From: Halobacillus karajensis
GTDB taxonomy: Bacteria > Bacillota > Bacilli > Bacillales > Halobacillaceae
Assembly: GCF_900108515.1 (NCBI RefSeq)
Contig: NZ_FNWW01000004.1
Coordinates: forward strand, 248,001 to 312,000
Length of the DNA: 64,000 nucleotides
Direction of reading: 5' to 3'
Part shown: in pieces, positions 29,804-43,287 of the stretch
Layout of the letters: each line of letters starts with the position of its first letter
Numbering within the stretch: position 1 is the first letter of the stretch
The notes under the pieces: generated by a model
The model's database searches: none
What the model was told of the DNA's origin: nothing
The model's input: the letters and a program-made list of their open reading frames with translations, nothing else
Position numbers and translations under genes: made by a program

Positions 29804-30703
29804 TTACCTTTCCTGCAACCAGTTCTCCCAATCTTTTTTGGAATTCCCCACCATAAAGGGGTGAATTTTCTTTTGATCGAGTTCGGATAAATAGTCGTCC
29901 ACATATCCGCCAAGGCCGATTTTTAAATCCGTGTATTGTCTCTGTAAAGACTCCACGACCCGGATAGCCTCTGCGGTATTCTTTTTAAGTGGACAAGACA
30001 TAAACATATATGTTGGCTTAACTTCATCAATAACGATTTGCATATCTCCACCGTCAATCCTTTGTCTGAGATAAACAACATCATACCCTTTTCTTTTTAA
30101 GAATAAGGCAAAAAGAAGCAATTCCAACTCATGATGTTCATTTGGCCCACAGACAAGCAATGCTTTCGGAAGCAGAGGGTCTGTGGGAATCGAAATCAAC
30201 ATCATGCCAATTCTCGATCGAATAAACTGAAGGGCAAAGTGTTCATGAGCACTTGTTATCCCATTTTCTTCATGCAGGTCCCCGATTTTACCAAGAATAG
30301 GTCCGAGAACGTCAATCGCGACCGTTTCAGGTGTAAATAGACTAAATGCATAGTCGAAATGTCGTTGGGCTTCTTTTTCGTTAAAAGAAAGCAAACCACT
30401 TAAAAGATCATCTCCTATTTTTTCAAGCTGTGTCGTTTGTTCAAAGTGATCAGGCCGTGTATCGGCCTTTTCATTACTTTCTATGAGAGAGACAGCTTGT
30501 GAAATAGTAAATCCTTTATCCAATTTTTCCATTAGCCCTTTCAATATCCGAATATGATCATCGGTATACAATCGATGACCGGCCTCATTTCGCGATGGCC
30601 TTATTATTTTATATCGCCTCTCCCAGGCCCGGAGTGTCCCCGGTTGAATCCCAAGCAATTGTGACACAGCTTTTATGTTGTATGTTGCATTAGTCCTTGC
30701 CAT
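29804..30703 (-). CDS. MerR-type regulator with B12-binding domain (CarH-like)
   Basis: A 299-aa regulator: N-terminal MerR winged helix (residues 8-75, with GIQPGTLRAWERRY), a helical B12 cap region (about 90-165) and a Rossmann-like cobalamin-binding domain (about 178-290). The lower-ligand histidine expected of CarH (its His177) is matched by His190 in GPNEHHELEL, and the Glu-His of the cap motif W-x9-E-H is kept as Glu154-His155. However the Trp is replaced by His144, and the residue equal to the light-forming His132 is Glu145. It may therefore sense a cobalamin form by a different mechanism, or have lost binding. Targets unknown. Confidence 0.82.
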   Translation of the reverse strand: MARTNATYNIKAVSQLLGIQPGTLRAWERRYKIIRPSRNEAGHRLYTDDHIRILKGLMEKLDKGFTISQAVSLIESNEKADTRPDHFEQTTQLEKIGDDLLSGLLSFNEKEAQRHFDYAFSLFTPETVAIDVLGPILGKIGDLHEENGITSAHEHFALQFIRSRIGMMLISIPTDPLLPKALLVCGPNEHHELELLLFALFLKRKGYDVVYLRQRIDGGDMQIVIDEVKPTYMFMSCPLKKNTAEAIRVVESLQRQYTDLKIGLGGYVDDYLSELDQKKIHPFMVGNSKKDWENWLQER

Positions 30704-38153: not shown

Positions 38154-39378
38154 ATTCTTCCACGATAGGGTTGATTCTCTCAGGCACTGGTATTGGTTCT
38201 TTGAGGTTGTACGTCGAGAATTCACTTACATTAAGACCCTTAAATTGGATTTCTTTAAAACCGAACTGAGCCCCTGTAGCAAGTATCGCTTCAATCATGG
38301 TTAAGACTTGTTGTTCACTAGCCCATGATTTATGGTGGAGCTCTATTGTAACTAGACCTTCCTTCGATTGAATCGTTGTAAACTGTACATGTTCCGGGAC
38401 GGGTGGCTTAACAAAAAGTCCGTTCCCCTTTTCCTTCATATTCTTTAATGCTTCTTGAAAAGTGAGCGGAGTATCGATCGCAATAGGAACTAGTAACCGT
38501 TCGGATAAATCTTCAAACTGGTACAGCATGAAAATATATTCCCCCTGTTCAATAACTGGTAGTTCTGTCATTTCTCCGTAGTTTCCGAGTACAACAGGGT
38601 TACCATTCTCCTTACGTATTAAGATTCTCTCAAGCTGAGGTGCGACATTTTCCAGCTCCCAGCGAATGCTTTCAACAATTGTCTGTGTCGAAGCTGAACC
38701 ATTTACTTGAAAATCATTAGGAAATATTACGACAGCTTCAGCTTTTTGTTCGTTTATTTCATATTGAAGCGATGTTGTCATACGGTCAGCCAAACCATAC
38801 TTATCCAAATCGATCTTACTAGCCTCTTTATTTATGGAAAGAGGTAGGACCACTTCAGCATTTCTTCCAGGATAAGCCATGATTTCAAAACCATTATTGG
38901 ATGACATGGTTATCATAGAATCAAGCTCAGAATCATTCGCTAAAGGGGCAGAGCCTGATTCTTGCTCTTCAGTTTCTTCTTCATTCCCTTCGATGGCAGG
39001 TTGTTCTTCCTTTTGCTTCGAGCGATGTGGCTTAGCTTCTTCAATTTCTGCCCGGTCTGCTTCTTTACTTTGAAACGTCTGATCAGAGGAGTGATCTTCA
39101 GATGAGGATGTTGAAAACTCCTTGTTTTCATGTGTGTCTTTAGAAGATTCATCTACAGTTAGCAACTGGTTATCATTTAAGAACACAGGAATAAATACAG
39201 CTAATACAAGAACCACCGCCATAGTTGCTAAACCTGGCAAAACCCACGGAGCCTTCTTTCTTTTTTGTTTATTCACGCGTGCGGATATTTTCTGATAGAG
39301 ATCTTCTTTGGATTGGCGATCTTCCACAGAAGGGAGCCTTTTCATTAATTGTTCGAGTTCCTTATCCTTACGTTTCAC
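38152..39378 (-). CDS. rsiX: Anti-sigma-X factor RsiX
   Basis: A 408-aa transmembrane anti-sigma factor. The cytoplasmic N-terminus (residues 1-44; LEQLMKRLPSVEDRQSKEDLYQKIS) should bind SigX, one membrane helix spans about residues 45-67, and the outside part begins with a Ser/Glu/Lys-rich low-complexity linker (about 78-150) followed by a globular sensing domain. It overlaps sigX by four bases, the usual arrangement. The identity rests on topology, operon position and the SigX neighbour; it is slightly longer than the B. subtilis protein because of the linker. Confidence 0.87.
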   Translation of the reverse strand: MKRKDKELEQLMKRLPSVEDRQSKEDLYQKISARVNKQKRKKAPWVLPGLATMAVVLVLAVFIPVFLNDNQLLTVDESSKDTHENKEFSTSSSEDHSSDQTFQSKEADRAEIEEAKPHRSKQKEEQPAIEGNEEETEEQESGSAPLANDSELDSMITMSSNNGFEIMAYPGRNAEVVLPLSINKEASKIDLDKYGLADRMTTSLQYEINEQKAEAVVIFPNDFQVNGSASTQTIVESIRWELENVAPQLERILIRKENGNPVVLGNYGEMTELPVIEQGEYIFMLYQFEDLSERLLVPIAIDTPLTFQEALKNMKEKGNGLFVKPPVPEHVQFTTIQSKEGLVTIELHHKSWASEQQVLTMIEAILATGAQFGFKEIQFKGLNVSEFSTYNLKEPIPVPERINPIVEE

Positions 39379-39908
39379 GGTCTGCCCCCTCCTTCATTCA
39401 TCTTTGCCAATATTAACTTCAAGGCTTTCACTGCTCTATGTTGAGTTGTCTTCACTTTACTCTCACTCCAGCCTAAAATTTCTGCTGTCTCCTTAATCGA
39501 CATGCACTGAATATAACGTAAAATTAATACACTTTTTTGATCGACCGTACATTCATCCAGCGCCCTGTATACCTCTTGAACTTCATCTTTTTGGATAGCT
39601 ATTTCTTCAGGAAGTTTTTGATGGTCTTGAATTTGTTCTCCTTTTTCATTCCAATCAAAAAACTCCATTATACGATTACGTTTACGTTTTTGTTTGCGAA
39701 AGTAATCAATGGCCACGTGTCGAGCTATAGAGAACAACCACGTCTTTTCTGAGCTTCTTCGGTTAAATGAATCGTATGATTTCATGACTCTTACATAAAC
39801 ATCCTGAACAAGGTCCTCAGCAAGATCCCTATCCTTAACCATGTATAAAAGGAACTGAAAAAGATCATGGTGATAGTTTTCATATAATTCATCAAAGAAC
39901 GTTCGCAA
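39375..39908 (-). CDS. sigX: ECF sigma factor SigX
   Basis: A 177-aa extracytoplasmic-function sigma factor that controls envelope-modification genes. Region 2 contains FLLYMVKDRDLAEDLVQDVYV (about residues 15-35) and SFNRRSSEKTWLFSIARHVA; region 4 has IKETAEILGWSESKVKTTQHRA near residue 137. The TTG start at 39908 follows AGGAGG with good spacing and gives an N-terminus like the B. subtilis protein; the upstream GTG includes the ribosome site. A perfect SigX-type promoter lies upstream, implying autoregulation. Confidence 0.93.
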   Translation of the reverse strand: MRTFFDELYENYHHDLFQFLLYMVKDRDLAEDLVQDVYVRVMKSYDSFNRRSSEKTWLFSIARHVAIDYFRKQKRKRNRIMEFFDWNEKGEQIQDHQKLPEEIAIQKDEVQEVYRALDECTVDQKSVLILRYIQCMSIKETAEILGWSESKVKTTQHRAVKALKLILAKMNEGGGRP

Positions 39909-39936
39909 TGGTGGTACCTCCTGGGTCACTTCTTTA

Positions 39937-40120: not shown

Positions 40121-40163
40121 AAATAAAAAATCATAGCCACCCTGCGATCAGGACAGCTATGAT
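40121..40163 (-). terminator. Terminator after ECF S-component gene
   Basis: Outer arms ATCATAGC and GCTATGAT plus an inner CCTG/CAGG pair, followed by TTTTTTATTTATC on the minus strand, overlapping the stop codon. Confidence 0.82.
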
Positions 40164-40669
40164 ACTTTCGTAATGGCATTTCTTTTTTCATACCGTTGGA
40201 AAAGAGTCCCTAATATGGGAGATAAGACTAAGACGAATGCTGTGTTGGCAATAGCATGATTAATATCCATAGGTAAGCCAGCCATGTAATAAGCCCAAAA
40301 TGGCTGGCCGGAAGCGCGCATTGTGAGAGAAAGGATGATTCCGAAGAACATTCCACTTATAAATCCATAAATGGAAAGAGCCCAGACCGGAAGCTTCGGC
40401 CAAACTTTCCCTAAAAGACCTGCTATAATGCCTATGAGAGACCAGGCAATAATCTGCCAAATTGTCCAGATGCCCATCCCTAACAAAACATTGGAAACAA
40501 AAGCAGTTAATAATGCAATAAGAACACCCGCACTTGGTCCAAGCCAAAAACCAGCGATAATAATAATCGCTGTCACAGGTTGGATATTAGGCAAATGTGC
40601 GAGTGCCATCCGCCCCGCCACAGCCAAGGAAGCAAGCATAGCAATTAATGTTAATTTATACGTATTCAT
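40157..40669 (-). CDS. ECF transporter S component, probably for vitamin B12
   Basis: A 170-aa integral membrane protein with five to six helices, typical of energy-coupling-factor substrate-binding subunits; it would work with shared EcfA/EcfA'/EcfT encoded elsewhere. Residues 18-45 (GRMALAHLPNIQPVTAI) and the ASGQPFWAYYMAGLPMD loop near residue 118 look like the CbrT-type cobalamin/cobinamide group. The substrate is inferred mainly from the cobalamin riboswitch upstream and the transcobalamin-like lipoprotein in the same operon. It begins seven bases after that gene. Confidence 0.85.
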   Translation of the reverse strand: MNTYKLTLIAMLASLAVAGRMALAHLPNIQPVTAIIIIAGFWLGPSAGVLIALLTAFVSNVLLGMGIWTIWQIIAWSLIGIIAGLLGKVWPKLPVWALSIYGFISGMFFGIILSLTMRASGQPFWAYYMAGLPMDINHAIANTAFVLVLSPILGTLFQRYEKRNAITKVS

Positions 40670-40675
40670 CCTTCA

Positions 40676-41074
40676 TCATTCCCAAGATTGGTAGTTAAAT
40701 AAGACCTCGTCACCATCTTCCAGTTCATATTCATTCGCACCGACCATAACCTCTTCTCCATTGATCGTGTACATCCAACCCATTTTTTCCTCTTCGTTAG
40801 TTGAGATTCCTTCAATACTGTTTATAAACCCTTCCGTTTGTTCTACCTCATAGTTTGATTCCATGACCTCCATTAAAGTTGTACCTTCTTCCACTTTAAA
40901 TTCATCTTCCGCGATCATTTCATCACCTTCAGAGATCTGAACATCAACAGTCAATTCCTCTGCCTGTTCTTCCTCAGTAGTTGATGTTTCTTCTTCTTCC
41001 TGCTGGGCACCGCATCCGGCTAGCACCCCAATAGCTAAAACCATGGCTGTGAAAATAGAATACCACTTATTCAT
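40676..41074 (-). CDS. DUF4430 (transcobalamin-like) lipoprotein
   Basis: A 132-aa secreted lipoprotein: lipobox GVLAGC (Cys near residue 19), an acidic Glu/Thr-rich linker (about 22-42), then one DUF4430 domain (about residues 48-131) of the fold seen at the C-terminus of transcobalamin and intrinsic factor, ending FNYQSWE. It may trap cobalamin or cobinamide at the membrane for the ECF subunit encoded next. The ATG at 41074 has GGGAGAG upstream; a longer in-frame reading would cover the riboswitch terminator and is rejected. Cobalamin binding is inference. Confidence 0.82.
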   Translation of the reverse strand: MNKWYSIFTAMVLAIGVLAGCGAQQEEEETSTTEEEQAEELTVDVQISEGDEMIAEDEFKVEEGTTLMEVMESNYEVEQTEGFINSIEGISTNEEEKMGWMYTINGEEVMVGANEYELEDGDEVLFNYQSWE

Positions 41075-41170
41075 TCCAAATCTCTCCCTATTCTCTATTT
41101 GTCCCAAAGCTTGTGTAATTATTTCGGATAACCAGAAATATGAAATAACTGAAGACCAAGTACTTCCCAA

Positions 41171-41204
41171 TAAAAAAAGCTTACCCTTAATTTTGGGTAA
41201 GCTT
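41171..41204 (-). terminator. Riboswitch-controlled terminator
   Basis: Perfect arms AAGCTTACCC and GGGTAAGCTT with an eight-base loop, then TTTTTTATT on the minus strand, lying between the B12 aptamer and the lipoprotein gene. This is the likely expression platform. Confidence 0.88.
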
Positions 41205-41264
41205 AAGACAATCCAACGGTAAGCTACACAAAAGTGTTTTACCATTGGTTGTCTCAAATACTCA

Positions 41265-41450
41265 ATCCCCGAAGCTTTGAAACATTGGATCAGGCAGGTC
41301 TACTGACTCGTGTATCCTTCTACTCAGGATCCTTCCCATGCCACATAGCACAGTGGAAATTCCTTTTCATCAACACTCACAGTTGCGAGGACAGTTCTGG
41401 TTTCTCACCAGATTCCCTTTTAAGTCTTACCCAAGACACCTGAATCCTCT
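41265..41450 (-). promoter_or_regulatory. Cobalamin (AdoCbl) riboswitch
   Basis: The minus strand carries the B12 box GAGTCAGTAGACCTGCC (41293-41309), the core GTCCTCGCAACTGTGA (41377-41392), the GGTGAGAAACC element near 41400-41410 and the usual flanking helices. Its terminator follows at 41171-41204. A further long hairpin (41207-41253) lies between aptamer and terminator. High cobalamin should stop transcription of the lipoprotein and ECF genes. Confidence 0.95.
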
Positions 41451-41502
41451 TCATATGAAGTTCTATAGACTAGATTACAACAATCTTCAAGATATAGCAA
41501 TA

Positions 41503-43287
41503 TCATTTTTCCGTACTTGCAAACGGGATCTTGAAGGTGAATGTTGTCCCTTCTTGCAGTTTACTATGCACACTAATGGACCCTTCATGTGCTTCTACAA
41601 TGTTTTTAGCTATGGCTAATCCCAATCCTGTTCCCTTCTTATAATTTTTATTTTCACGCTTCCTTGATTTATCTGCCTTATAAAAGCGCTCAAAAACAAA
41701 CGGAAGATCTTCCTCCTTAATACCAAAACCAGAATCCTTAACACTTGCCACCCATTCTTTTTGGCCTTTTTCAATGATTACCTTTACTGCACTGCCCTGG
41801 TTGGAATGCCTGATCGCATTATCAATTAAATTCGTAAACACTTGCTCTATTCGGTCCGGGTCAAAATGAAGAAGATCAAAACCACTGTCTATCCTCAACT
41901 CTAGATCGACTTCTTTTTCGTTGGCTATCCCGGAAAACTTGCGGATGATTTTATTCATAAAGGACTGTATCTCCACAGGCTCTGTCGATAACTGAATATG
42001 CCCTGCTTCCATACGCGCTAAATCTAACAGCTCATTCACCAAGCGACCAATCCTCAGTGATTCATCATGTATAATCTGCGCTAATTCATTTTTATCTTCT
42101 TTCGATTCTGCAATGTCATCGACTATCGCTTCACTATACCCTTGAAGCATGGAGATCGGTGTTCTTAATTCGTGAGAAACATTAGCAATAAAATCTTTCC
42201 GCAGCTTATTCAGTCGTCTTTCTTCTGTCATATCTCTAAGTACAGCCACCGCTCCCCTGACTTGTTCTCTATCGTACAAAGGTGTCATAATTATAACCCA
42301 GGATCTCCCCTGTAGTGTCATTTCAACCATGGACTCCTTCTCATCATGAATGACGCTATTAAATAATTCTTCTAATGGTTCTGGTAGAGCTGGTCTTCCT
42401 GACTGGGAAGAAACACTATATCTTTCAAATTCATAAGCTTCCAGATAATGTTGGGCGGGGGGGTTGGATATTAACACATCTCCTTGACGGTTGAACGTAA
42501 TTACCCCATCAGCCATCGAACTCAAAATTCCTGACAGCTGCTCTTTTTCCTGATTCAACGCATTAATATGAAATTTCAGCTCTCGTCCCATACGATTAAA
42601 CGCCATCGCTAATTCACCAATTTCATCATGAGTCCGAATTGGAATTTTTGTATTGAATTCCCCTTTTGCAAGTTCAAGTGCTCCTTCTCTCATTTTAATT
42701 AAAGGCGCTGTTATTCGTGTGGAGAGGAAAAAGGCGAAAATTGTTGTTAAAACAATGGCAATTCCTGCCCCCAAAAAAATAATTTTCGTTGTTTGTTCGG
42801 ATGTCTCCTCAATGGTATCCAAGGACTGGTAAACAAAGACAGCCCCACTATTATGATTTAAAGGAGTTCCTACAACCATAATTCCATTTTCACCAGAGGT
42901 CAGGTTAGCGACTTTCTTTACATCGGCACCTTCTTCTAACACGGCTGATAATTCTTCATCTCTTTCGAACCATGAATAACTAAGTTCAGGCAGAGAAGAA
43001 GAATCATTTTCCGGAACAAGGAGGTCTTCGGATCCGCGTACGATAACAGCCCGACTGGCGGAGTCTTTTACCAGAGCTGTTGTAGACAGCATAAGCTCTT
43101 CATCATCTTCATAACGATCCACGACGTCAGAAATTTTATCAGCTGTCTGTAAGAGATGTCTCTCTGCCTCGAGTATATGATAGTTTTGGAAGAACTCTAG
43201 AAGCAGGACTGTCAGGATGAAAAGTACAAAACAAACTAAAAATAAGATGGTAAACCATAACTTTACGACAACACTACGCCAAAACAT
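41503..43287 (-). CDS. resE: Sensor histidine kinase ResE
   Basis: Membrane kinase of the ResDE system that signals oxygen limitation and NO. The 594-aa protein has two membrane helices (about 8-30 and 170-192) bounding an extracellular domain, a HAMP segment (about 190-245), a PAS-like domain (about 255-350), the phospho-His box FIANVSHELRTPISML near residue 370, and an ATPase domain with NLIDNAIRHS, DSGFGI and GTGLGLAIAK. It overlaps resD by one base. Confidence 0.93.
   Translation of the reverse strand: MFWRSVVVKLWFTILFLVCFVLFILTVLLLEFFQNYHILEAERHLLQTADKISDVVDRYEDDEELMLSTTALVKDSASRAVIVRGSEDLLVPENDSSSLPELSYSWFERDEELSAVLEEGADVKKVANLTSGENGIMVVGTPLNHNSGAVFVYQSLDTIEETSEQTTKIIFLGAGIAIVLTTIFAFFLSTRITAPLIKMREGALELAKGEFNTKIPIRTHDEIGELAMAFNRMGRELKFHINALNQEKEQLSGILSSMADGVITFNRQGDVLISNPPAQHYLEAYEFERYSVSSQSGRPALPEPLEELFNSVIHDEKESMVEMTLQGRSWVIIMTPLYDREQVRGAVAVLRDMTEERRLNKLRKDFIANVSHELRTPISMLQGYSEAIVDDIAESKEDKNELAQIIHDESLRIGRLVNELLDLARMEAGHIQLSTEPVEIQSFMNKIIRKFSGIANEKEVDLELRIDSGFDLLHFDPDRIEQVFTNLIDNAIRHSNQGSAVKVIIEKGQKEWVASVKDSGFGIKEEDLPFVFERFYKADKSRKRENKNYKKGTGLGLAIAKNIVEAHEGSISVHSKLQEGTTFTFKIPFASTEK

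Follow-up and report, generated by a model that had tools for sequence, protein, structure and literature searches.

A two-gene block on the minus strand of Halobacillus karajensis quite probably constitutes a minimal corrinoid uptake operon, in which a riboswitch-controlled lipoprotein would catch the corrinoid and a CbrT-type S component would import it together with EcfA1A2T. It lies in a window of 64,000 nucleotides, which is the whole stretch of DNA that was analysed. A preceding sequence-only reading had proposed that a CbrT-type uptake protein and a transcobalamin-like lipoprotein form one operon under cobalamin control, and this core is upheld by the riboswitch, by the match of the S component to 6fnp and by the fold of the lipoprotein; the accompanying suggestion of an unusual or distinct route is not. 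From 41458 to 40130, the minus strand carries a riboswitch, a terminator, the DUF4430 lipoprotein gene, the ECF S-component gene and a second terminator, flanked by two genes given for context only:

41503-43287, minus strand: upstream neighbour (context only), resE-like sensor histidine kinase with HisK_sensor, HAMP, PAS, HisKA and HATPase domains
41276-41458, minus strand: cobalamin (AdoCbl-type) riboswitch aptamer (RF00174, E 5.4e-29)
41206-41254, minus strand: long hairpin between aptamer and terminator, from leader folding; putative part of the expression platform
41177-41204, minus strand: intrinsic terminator of the riboswitch, 10-pair stem and T run
40676-41074, minus strand: DUF4430 (transcobalamin beta-domain-like) predicted lipoprotein, 132 aa (PF14478; lipobox LAGC, Cys21)
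40157-40669, minus strand: cbrT-like ECF S component, 170 aa (ECF_trnsprt E 1.1e-9; 6fnp_A by phmmer)
40130-40163, minus strand: operon-end terminator, 15-pair stem and T run
39375-39929, minus strand: downstream neighbour (context only), sigX (NF007220 SigX, 270.6 bits vs a cut-off of 260)

The block had been placed at 40157-41450, a location that holds except at its upper end, where the aptamer begins 8 bases further, at 41458. A gap of 6 bp separates the lipoprotein frame (41074-40676) from the S-component frame (40669-40157). Both frames match their Pfam families (PF14478 and ECF_trnsprt), in agreement with the proposed pair, and the setting between a resE-like gene and sigX is likewise borne out by the domain layout of the kinase and by an NF007220 score above cut-off. 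The name resE for the kinase (43287-41503) is a by-eye reading of domain layout and neighbours; among the matches listed, no NCBIfam histidine-kinase model reached its cut-off, the best being WalK at 386 vs 725. No EcfT or EcfA genes were seen among the open reading frames at the window locus.

The cobalamin riboswitch was confirmed by a covariance search, in which RF00174 matches end to end (model positions 1-189 of 189) at 118.1 bits vs a gathering score of 31.5. At that gathering score, this is the single match in the whole 64 kb. The terminators are supported by hairpins with T runs at 41204-41177 and 40163-40130 on the minus strand; a scan for terminator-like sites returned 8 on both strands of 4 kb, vs 2.7 expected from shuffling. 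Leader segment 41290-41170, in which the long hairpin and the terminator are taken jointly, folds at -43.9 kcal/mol (z -6.06), a value equalled by 0/200 shuffles. By a criterion set in this analysis, a terminator-like hairpin follows the aptamer on its 3′ side in 30/30 relatives vs 42/600 mononucleotide-shuffled controls. The riboswitch is likely of the OFF type, such that low AdoCbl should permit read-through of the terminator. A simple promoter scan found no minus-strand promoter-like site just 5′ of the aptamer, and promoter-like sites were not enriched (8 vs 9.5 in shuffles).

By sequence, the S component of the window groups with CbrT, and corrinoids would be its transported substrates. 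A phmmer search of all PDB sequences gave a sole match up to E 10, chain 6fnp_A (E 5.4e-21). With a 26-row S-component profile, the same chain is found at E 8.8e-40 and the second-ranked chain, another S component (4hzu_S), at E 0.39, which sustains the earlier CbrT-like assignment. The 6fnp entry is ECF-CbrT of Lactobacillus delbrueckii, for which binding and transport of cobalamin and cobinamide were demonstrated (PMC5997447). Two other vitamins were considered and rejected. The NCBIfam folate model scores 20.4 vs a cut-off of 60. The riboflavin family PF07155 does pass (32.9 vs 26.7), but ECF_trnsprt scores 39 and the PDB sequence search yields CbrT alone. An AF2 model of the S component is confident (pLDDT 93), and its Foldseek matches are weak: the best are other S components at E ≥ 6.5e-3, with 6fnp outside the best 50.

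The first gene of the operon encodes a predicted lipoprotein, which is presumably anchored at the outer face of the membrane. Its lipobox, LAGC, occupies residues 18-21, and Cys21 is invariant in 52/52 aligned Bacillaceae sequences. PF14478 (DUF4430) covers residues 64-129 at 78.8 bits vs a cut-off of 23.8 (E 4.3e-22). The AF2 model is confident from approximately residue 40 onwards, with blocks of 93-97 over residues 41-130. Foldseek returned 716 matches with this model, 19 of them at E ≤ 1e-3, and these comprise 17 chains of transcobalamin, intrinsic factor or haptocorrin and two chains of RUMGNA_00854. Among them is the free beta domain of human transcobalamin (TC), both without CNCbl (5no0) and with cyanocobalamin (5np4); the next class, ubiquitin-like proteins, starts from E 4e-3. 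Fold searches with the models, each of a single protein, led to the transcobalamin beta fold for the lipoprotein and, weakly, to S components for the S component.

The sequence of the lipoprotein points in the same direction as its fold. A 24-row profile finds the haptocorrin C-terminal domain at rank 2 among 177,635 sequences (E 0.0062, weak when taken alone), and the family-invariant Trp100 and Gly112-Ala113 align to identical residues in that domain. In the AF2 model, a helix (67-74) is followed by strands 77-80 and 83-87, which may correspond to the beta-hairpin insert after the helix that marks the transcobalamin-like SLBB clade (Burroughs et al. 2007, PMC1796856). By Pfam, the alpha/alpha toroid is absent from the window protein, whose 132 aa carry DUF4430 only. 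In transcobalamin, the two domains clamp B12 and splitting them lowers affinity; the isolated human TC beta domain was nevertheless crystallised with CNCbl and with cobinamide (Bloch et al., PMC5599065). These crystal structures indicate that a beta domain by itself is able to bind corrinoids, with lower affinity than the intact protein. Judged by its modelled fold, the window lipoprotein has cobalamin or cobinamide as its most likely ligand, to be caught in the wall space.

The rest of the genome provides a setting for such an operon. Five cobalamin riboswitches lie above cut-off in the 4.07-Mb host assembly, that of the window included, and the other four precede metE, class I RNR genes, prpC-prpD-prpB and a valine-type operon. 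The latter comprises an acyl-CoA dehydrogenase, a 3-hydroxyisobutyrate dehydrogenase, an aldehyde dehydrogenase and two enoyl-CoA hydratases called by eye; gene families at the host riboswitches were otherwise identified by Pfam, and the gene names were assigned in this analysis. The enzymes encoded by metE, the class I RNR genes and prpCDB do without B12 and are alternatives to enzymes or routes that depend on it. "Isozymes of B12-dependent enzymes" are a described target class of the cobalamin riboswitch (PMC3766115). At host contig C9:8471-9136 (L069), two divergent cobalamin riboswitches face prpC-prpD-prpB, of the methylcitrate cycle, and the valine-type catabolic operon.

The methylmalonyl-CoA mutase family occurs at two places in the host genome. 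Four of its open frames contain B12-binding domains, including a borderline match in a MerR-type regulator of the window. This 299-aa regulator (29804-30703, minus strand), approximately 10 kb from the operon, combines MerR with B12-binding_2, its B12-binding match falling just below cut-off, and the layout of MerR plus B12-binding is presumably that of CarH-type cobalamin photoreceptors. CbiC/CobH is absent from the host genome by a search that was positive in 7/14 control genomes. The organism is therefore a B12 user that, by this one marker, performs no corrin ring synthesis. EcfT (PF02361) is found at host contig C20, adjoined by ecfA1, ecfA2, truA and rplM (by eye), and a second EcfT at contig C3. 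This is the Group II ECF arrangement, with a lone S component and an EcfA1A2T module elsewhere in the genome, and the S component would use the EcfA1-EcfA2-EcfT module of the truA/rplM locus.

The pair is well conserved. Across 61 genomes (that of the host and 60 relatives), the S component is found in 43. Within the taxonomic family of the window, it occurs in 35/37 genomes, with an adjoining DUF4430 gene in 35/35, and the riboswitch was detected at 30/30 scanned loci (of 34 other loci in the family). The closest named relatives of the S component are from six Halobacillus, at 85-89% identity. A wider set of 80 named loci was chosen as the closest matches among 154 and is for that reason no sample of all CbrT genes; here, DUF4430 lies directly upstream of cbrT in 80/80 (75 by ORF calling, five by tblastn), so that the DUF4430 and ECF S-component genes seen side by side in the sequence-only reading are adjacent throughout this survey. 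A relative of the resE-like kinase (phmmer E ≤ 1e-60) is upstream of the pair in 78/80 of these loci, and a sigX relative (E ≤ 1e-25) was found downstream in 50/80. The riboswitch is present in 69/80, 68 by nhmmer and one (L137) recovered by Rfam from the 12 misses. The gene pair is kept with no riboswitch at the Rfam gathering score in 11/80, including L109 and L154. At these two loci, merely ~40 bp lead from the resE-like gene to the DUF4430 gene.

Three forms of the system can be distinguished. Form (a), that of the window, consists of DUF4430 and cbrT with no ECF genes beside them; one such locus, L077, matches the related AdoCbl model RF01482. Form (b) unites nrdJ, DUF4430, cbrT and an adenosyltransferase, in the order nrdJ-DUF4430-ECF S-adenosyltransferase on a Lactobacillus intestinalis plasmid. 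In a variant of this form (L075), cbrT comes ahead of DUF4430 (nrdJ-cbrT-DUF4430-pduO); it has no riboswitch at the gathering score and its DUF4430 protein is without a lipobox Cys. On the L. plantarum plasmid pMF1298-5, a "fucose-binding lectin II" gene lies between cbrT and DUF4430 (L213:8560-9612, plus strand), with no Pfam match at E 0.001. Form (c) is larger, comprising one or more large DUF4430 proteins, a smaller DUF4430 protein, an EcfT-like protein, an EcfA fusion and a longer CbrT. Its EcfT label is partly positional, since Pfam CbiQ matches 2/5 of the EcfT-like proteins (L073 and L202, not L072, L074 and L211). Sortases were confirmed in L072 and L074, and matches to the alpha/alpha toroid and SLH were found in 3/4 large DUF4430 proteins scanned (L073, L194 and L202, none in L072). 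The riboswitch leads all four form (c) loci of the taxonomic order of the window (L072, L073, L074 and L076). A 1553-aa surface protein at L073:5702-10363 (plus strand), itself led by a cobalamin riboswitch, has five DUF4430 stretches along with the alpha/alpha toroid and SLH, joining both transcobalamin domain types in one bacterial protein.

The resE-sigX gap holds more than one form. Form (a) occupies it in the window, and in L072 (G039) form (c), with a sortase and an EcfA-like fusion, is found between relatives of the window kinase (E 1.6e-205) and of SigX (E 3.2e-72). A CbrT tree mostly separates the forms and clusters the L072 CbrT with the CbrTs of form (c). The tree was built by FastTree with a midpoint root and no support values, and open reading frames below 140 aa were dropped (L109, L113, L118, L194, L206). 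Its form labels are rough: L103 is marked "noDUF" despite a DUF4430 gene, and L215, "multi" by distance, sits on the two-gene side. An origin of the two-gene form by shrinkage of the large operon at this site was considered and is unsupported, as the L072 CbrT groups with those of other large operons. From the shared gap and the tree placement, it is probable that the resE-sigX site received two kinds of B12 system, or that one took the place of the other there.

The coupling holds at phylum level too. An even draw of 249 Bacillota genomes was searched at E 1e-8 for CbrT and E 1e-4 for DUF4430: CbrT was found in 75, DUF4430 in 77 and both in 73 (Fisher p 2.5e-55, which overstates the evidence because the surveyed genomes are not independent). 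Per genus, each family is found in 56/188. The biotin S component BioY, used as a control, occurs in 222/249 genomes and in 71/77 of those with DUF4430, showing no link (p 0.21). In at least 65/75 genomes, CbrT and DUF4430 share a contig at a distance of no more than 12 kb, and in at least 8 they are within 100 bases. DUF4430 was not found in a search of the whole genome in two genomes with CbrT (G144 and G232), and the G144 contig ends ~500 bases past cbrT. The converse, DUF4430 with no CbrT, was seen in G193, G248, G253 and G273, three of which are one genus. The pairing of an ECF S component with DUF4430 had been called unusual, a view ruled out by co-occurrence in 73/75 CbrT and 73/77 DUF4430 genomes. 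The idea of a perhaps distinct uptake route is not well supported either, the coupling being usual in Bacillota and scavenging by transcobalamin-like proteins having been predicted in 2007 (PMC1796856). In nine genomes (G101, G113, G166, G176, G200, G255, G267, G280 and G305), the CbrT match lies inside an open frame of 739-1059 aa, which suggests an S component fused to other domains.

As family and anatomy of the riboswitch suggest, transcription would pass the terminator when AdoCbl is low, and both proteins would then be made. The lipoprotein, at the outer face of the membrane, would bind cobalamin or cobinamide in the wall space via its transcobalamin-beta-like domain. The CbrT-type S component would take the corrinoid from it, dock on the shared EcfA1-EcfA2-EcfT of the truA/rplM locus and carry the corrinoid inward. 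A role of the lipoprotein as donor to CbrT is plausible. Because ECF-CbrT is functional in vitro on its own (PMC5997447), the lipoprotein would be a capture-raising helper rather than an absolute need. In a more specific version, which is rather doubtful, the free beta domain would act as a dedicated ECF substrate-binding protein, holding one face of the corrinoid and docking on CbrT so that together they rebuild the two-sided clamp of transcobalamin. If true, the same binding module would serve B12 capture in Gram-positives and the B12 carriers of animals, and the multi-DUF4430 systems with alpha/alpha toroids, SLH, sortases and lipoproteins would be wall relays of like kind.

The operon could also serve B12 uptake with no hand-over, the lipoprotein merely concentrating corrinoid in the wall, or stabilising or orienting CbrT. 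This is possible, if somewhat doubtful. B12 transport by purified ECF-CbrT needs no lipoprotein, the transporter complements E. coli (PMC5997447), gene order varies (as in L075), and the nearest DUF4430 gene is often some kb from cbrT (within 100 bases in at least 8 genomes, vs at least 65/75 within 12 kb); against these points, the co-occurrence in 73/75 genomes and the resemblance in fold to a B12-binding domain favour a direct corrinoid role. A true substrate other than cobalamin, namely a precursor such as cobinamide, is improbable. CbrT and the TC beta domain both accept cobinamide (PMC5997447, PMC5599065), and in the L. plantarum plasmid cluster cobS and salvage genes lie close to the ECF genes, but the affinity of CbrT is approximately fourfold lower for cobinamide than for cobalamin (PMC5997447) and the other host riboswitch targets concern general B12 supply. 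It is very improbable that the lipoprotein binds another ligand and is linked to the system by co-transcription only, as would be the case for a component of ResE or SigX envelope signalling. The position of the block between the resE-like gene and sigX, with a kinase relative upstream in nearly all named loci, would fit such a role; elsewhere (L075, L202, L214), however, DUF4430 still accompanies cbrT, nrdJ, an adenosyltransferase or ECF genes. A ResE/SigX partner role was rejected on this pairing with cbrT at other genomic locations.

The corrinoid uptake reading bears on a family that Pfam still lists as a "domain of unknown function". In the Bacillota sample, DUF4430 and CbrT are coupled almost one to one, which suggests that Gram-positive ECF B12 uptake usually has a transcobalamin-like extracellular partner, and the two-gene form is small enough for direct testing. 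It also bears on the origin of animal transcobalamin, a question raised in 2007 (PMC1796856). The open-licence PMC literature, in the text available, yielded no assay of a bacterial DUF4430 protein; its DUF4430 hit in PMC4350170 concerns fish Tcn-like proteins. The pairing of DUF4430 with CbrT is usual in Bacillota and was largely foreseen in print. New here are the tightness of the coupling, the two-gene riboswitch form and the finding that a different lineage has a larger form at this site.

Among known systems, ECF-CbrT of L. delbrueckii (6fnp), predicted by Rodionov et al. 2009 and demonstrated in 2018, has an S component of the same family (PMC5997447), and the window operon, too, is likely to rely on a shared ECF module. 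The L. delbrueckii cluster is nrdJ-cbrS-cbrT-pduO, whereas the window operon has two genes and a riboswitch and lacks an adjacent nrdJ or pduO. Since the gene order on the L. intestinalis plasmid is that of the L. delbrueckii cluster, cbrS is very likely the DUF4430 gene; in its available text, the ECF-CbrT work treats CbrT without cbrS (PMC5997447). BtuFCD likewise combines an extracytoplasmic corrinoid binder with a membrane importer, as proposed for the window pair, but neither window protein matches a periplasmic-binding or FecCD-type Pfam family. BtuG of Bacteroides plays a role like that proposed here, since this lipoprotein captures B12 at the surface and serves a transporter. It differs in acting with the outer-membrane protein BtuB and in being a beta-propeller, a fold unlike that of the window lipoprotein (PMC6143338).

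The closest precedent is the transcobalamin-like SLBB clade (Burroughs et al. 2007, PMC1796856), described in low-GC Gram-positives with toroid fusions and CbiO/CbiQ operons and with an Oceanobacillus protein named as a member. B12 scavenging was proposed for it, in bacteria usually without key B12 synthesis enzymes. The window lipoprotein is likewise a predicted beta-grasp protein, secreted or anchored, while the S component, the riboswitch and the two-gene form of the window are without mention in the available text of that study. With transcobalamin, intrinsic factor and haptocorrin, the window lipoprotein has the C-terminal beta-domain fold in common; the alpha/alpha toroid half is absent from the window protein, which is also distinguished from them as a predicted lipoprotein.
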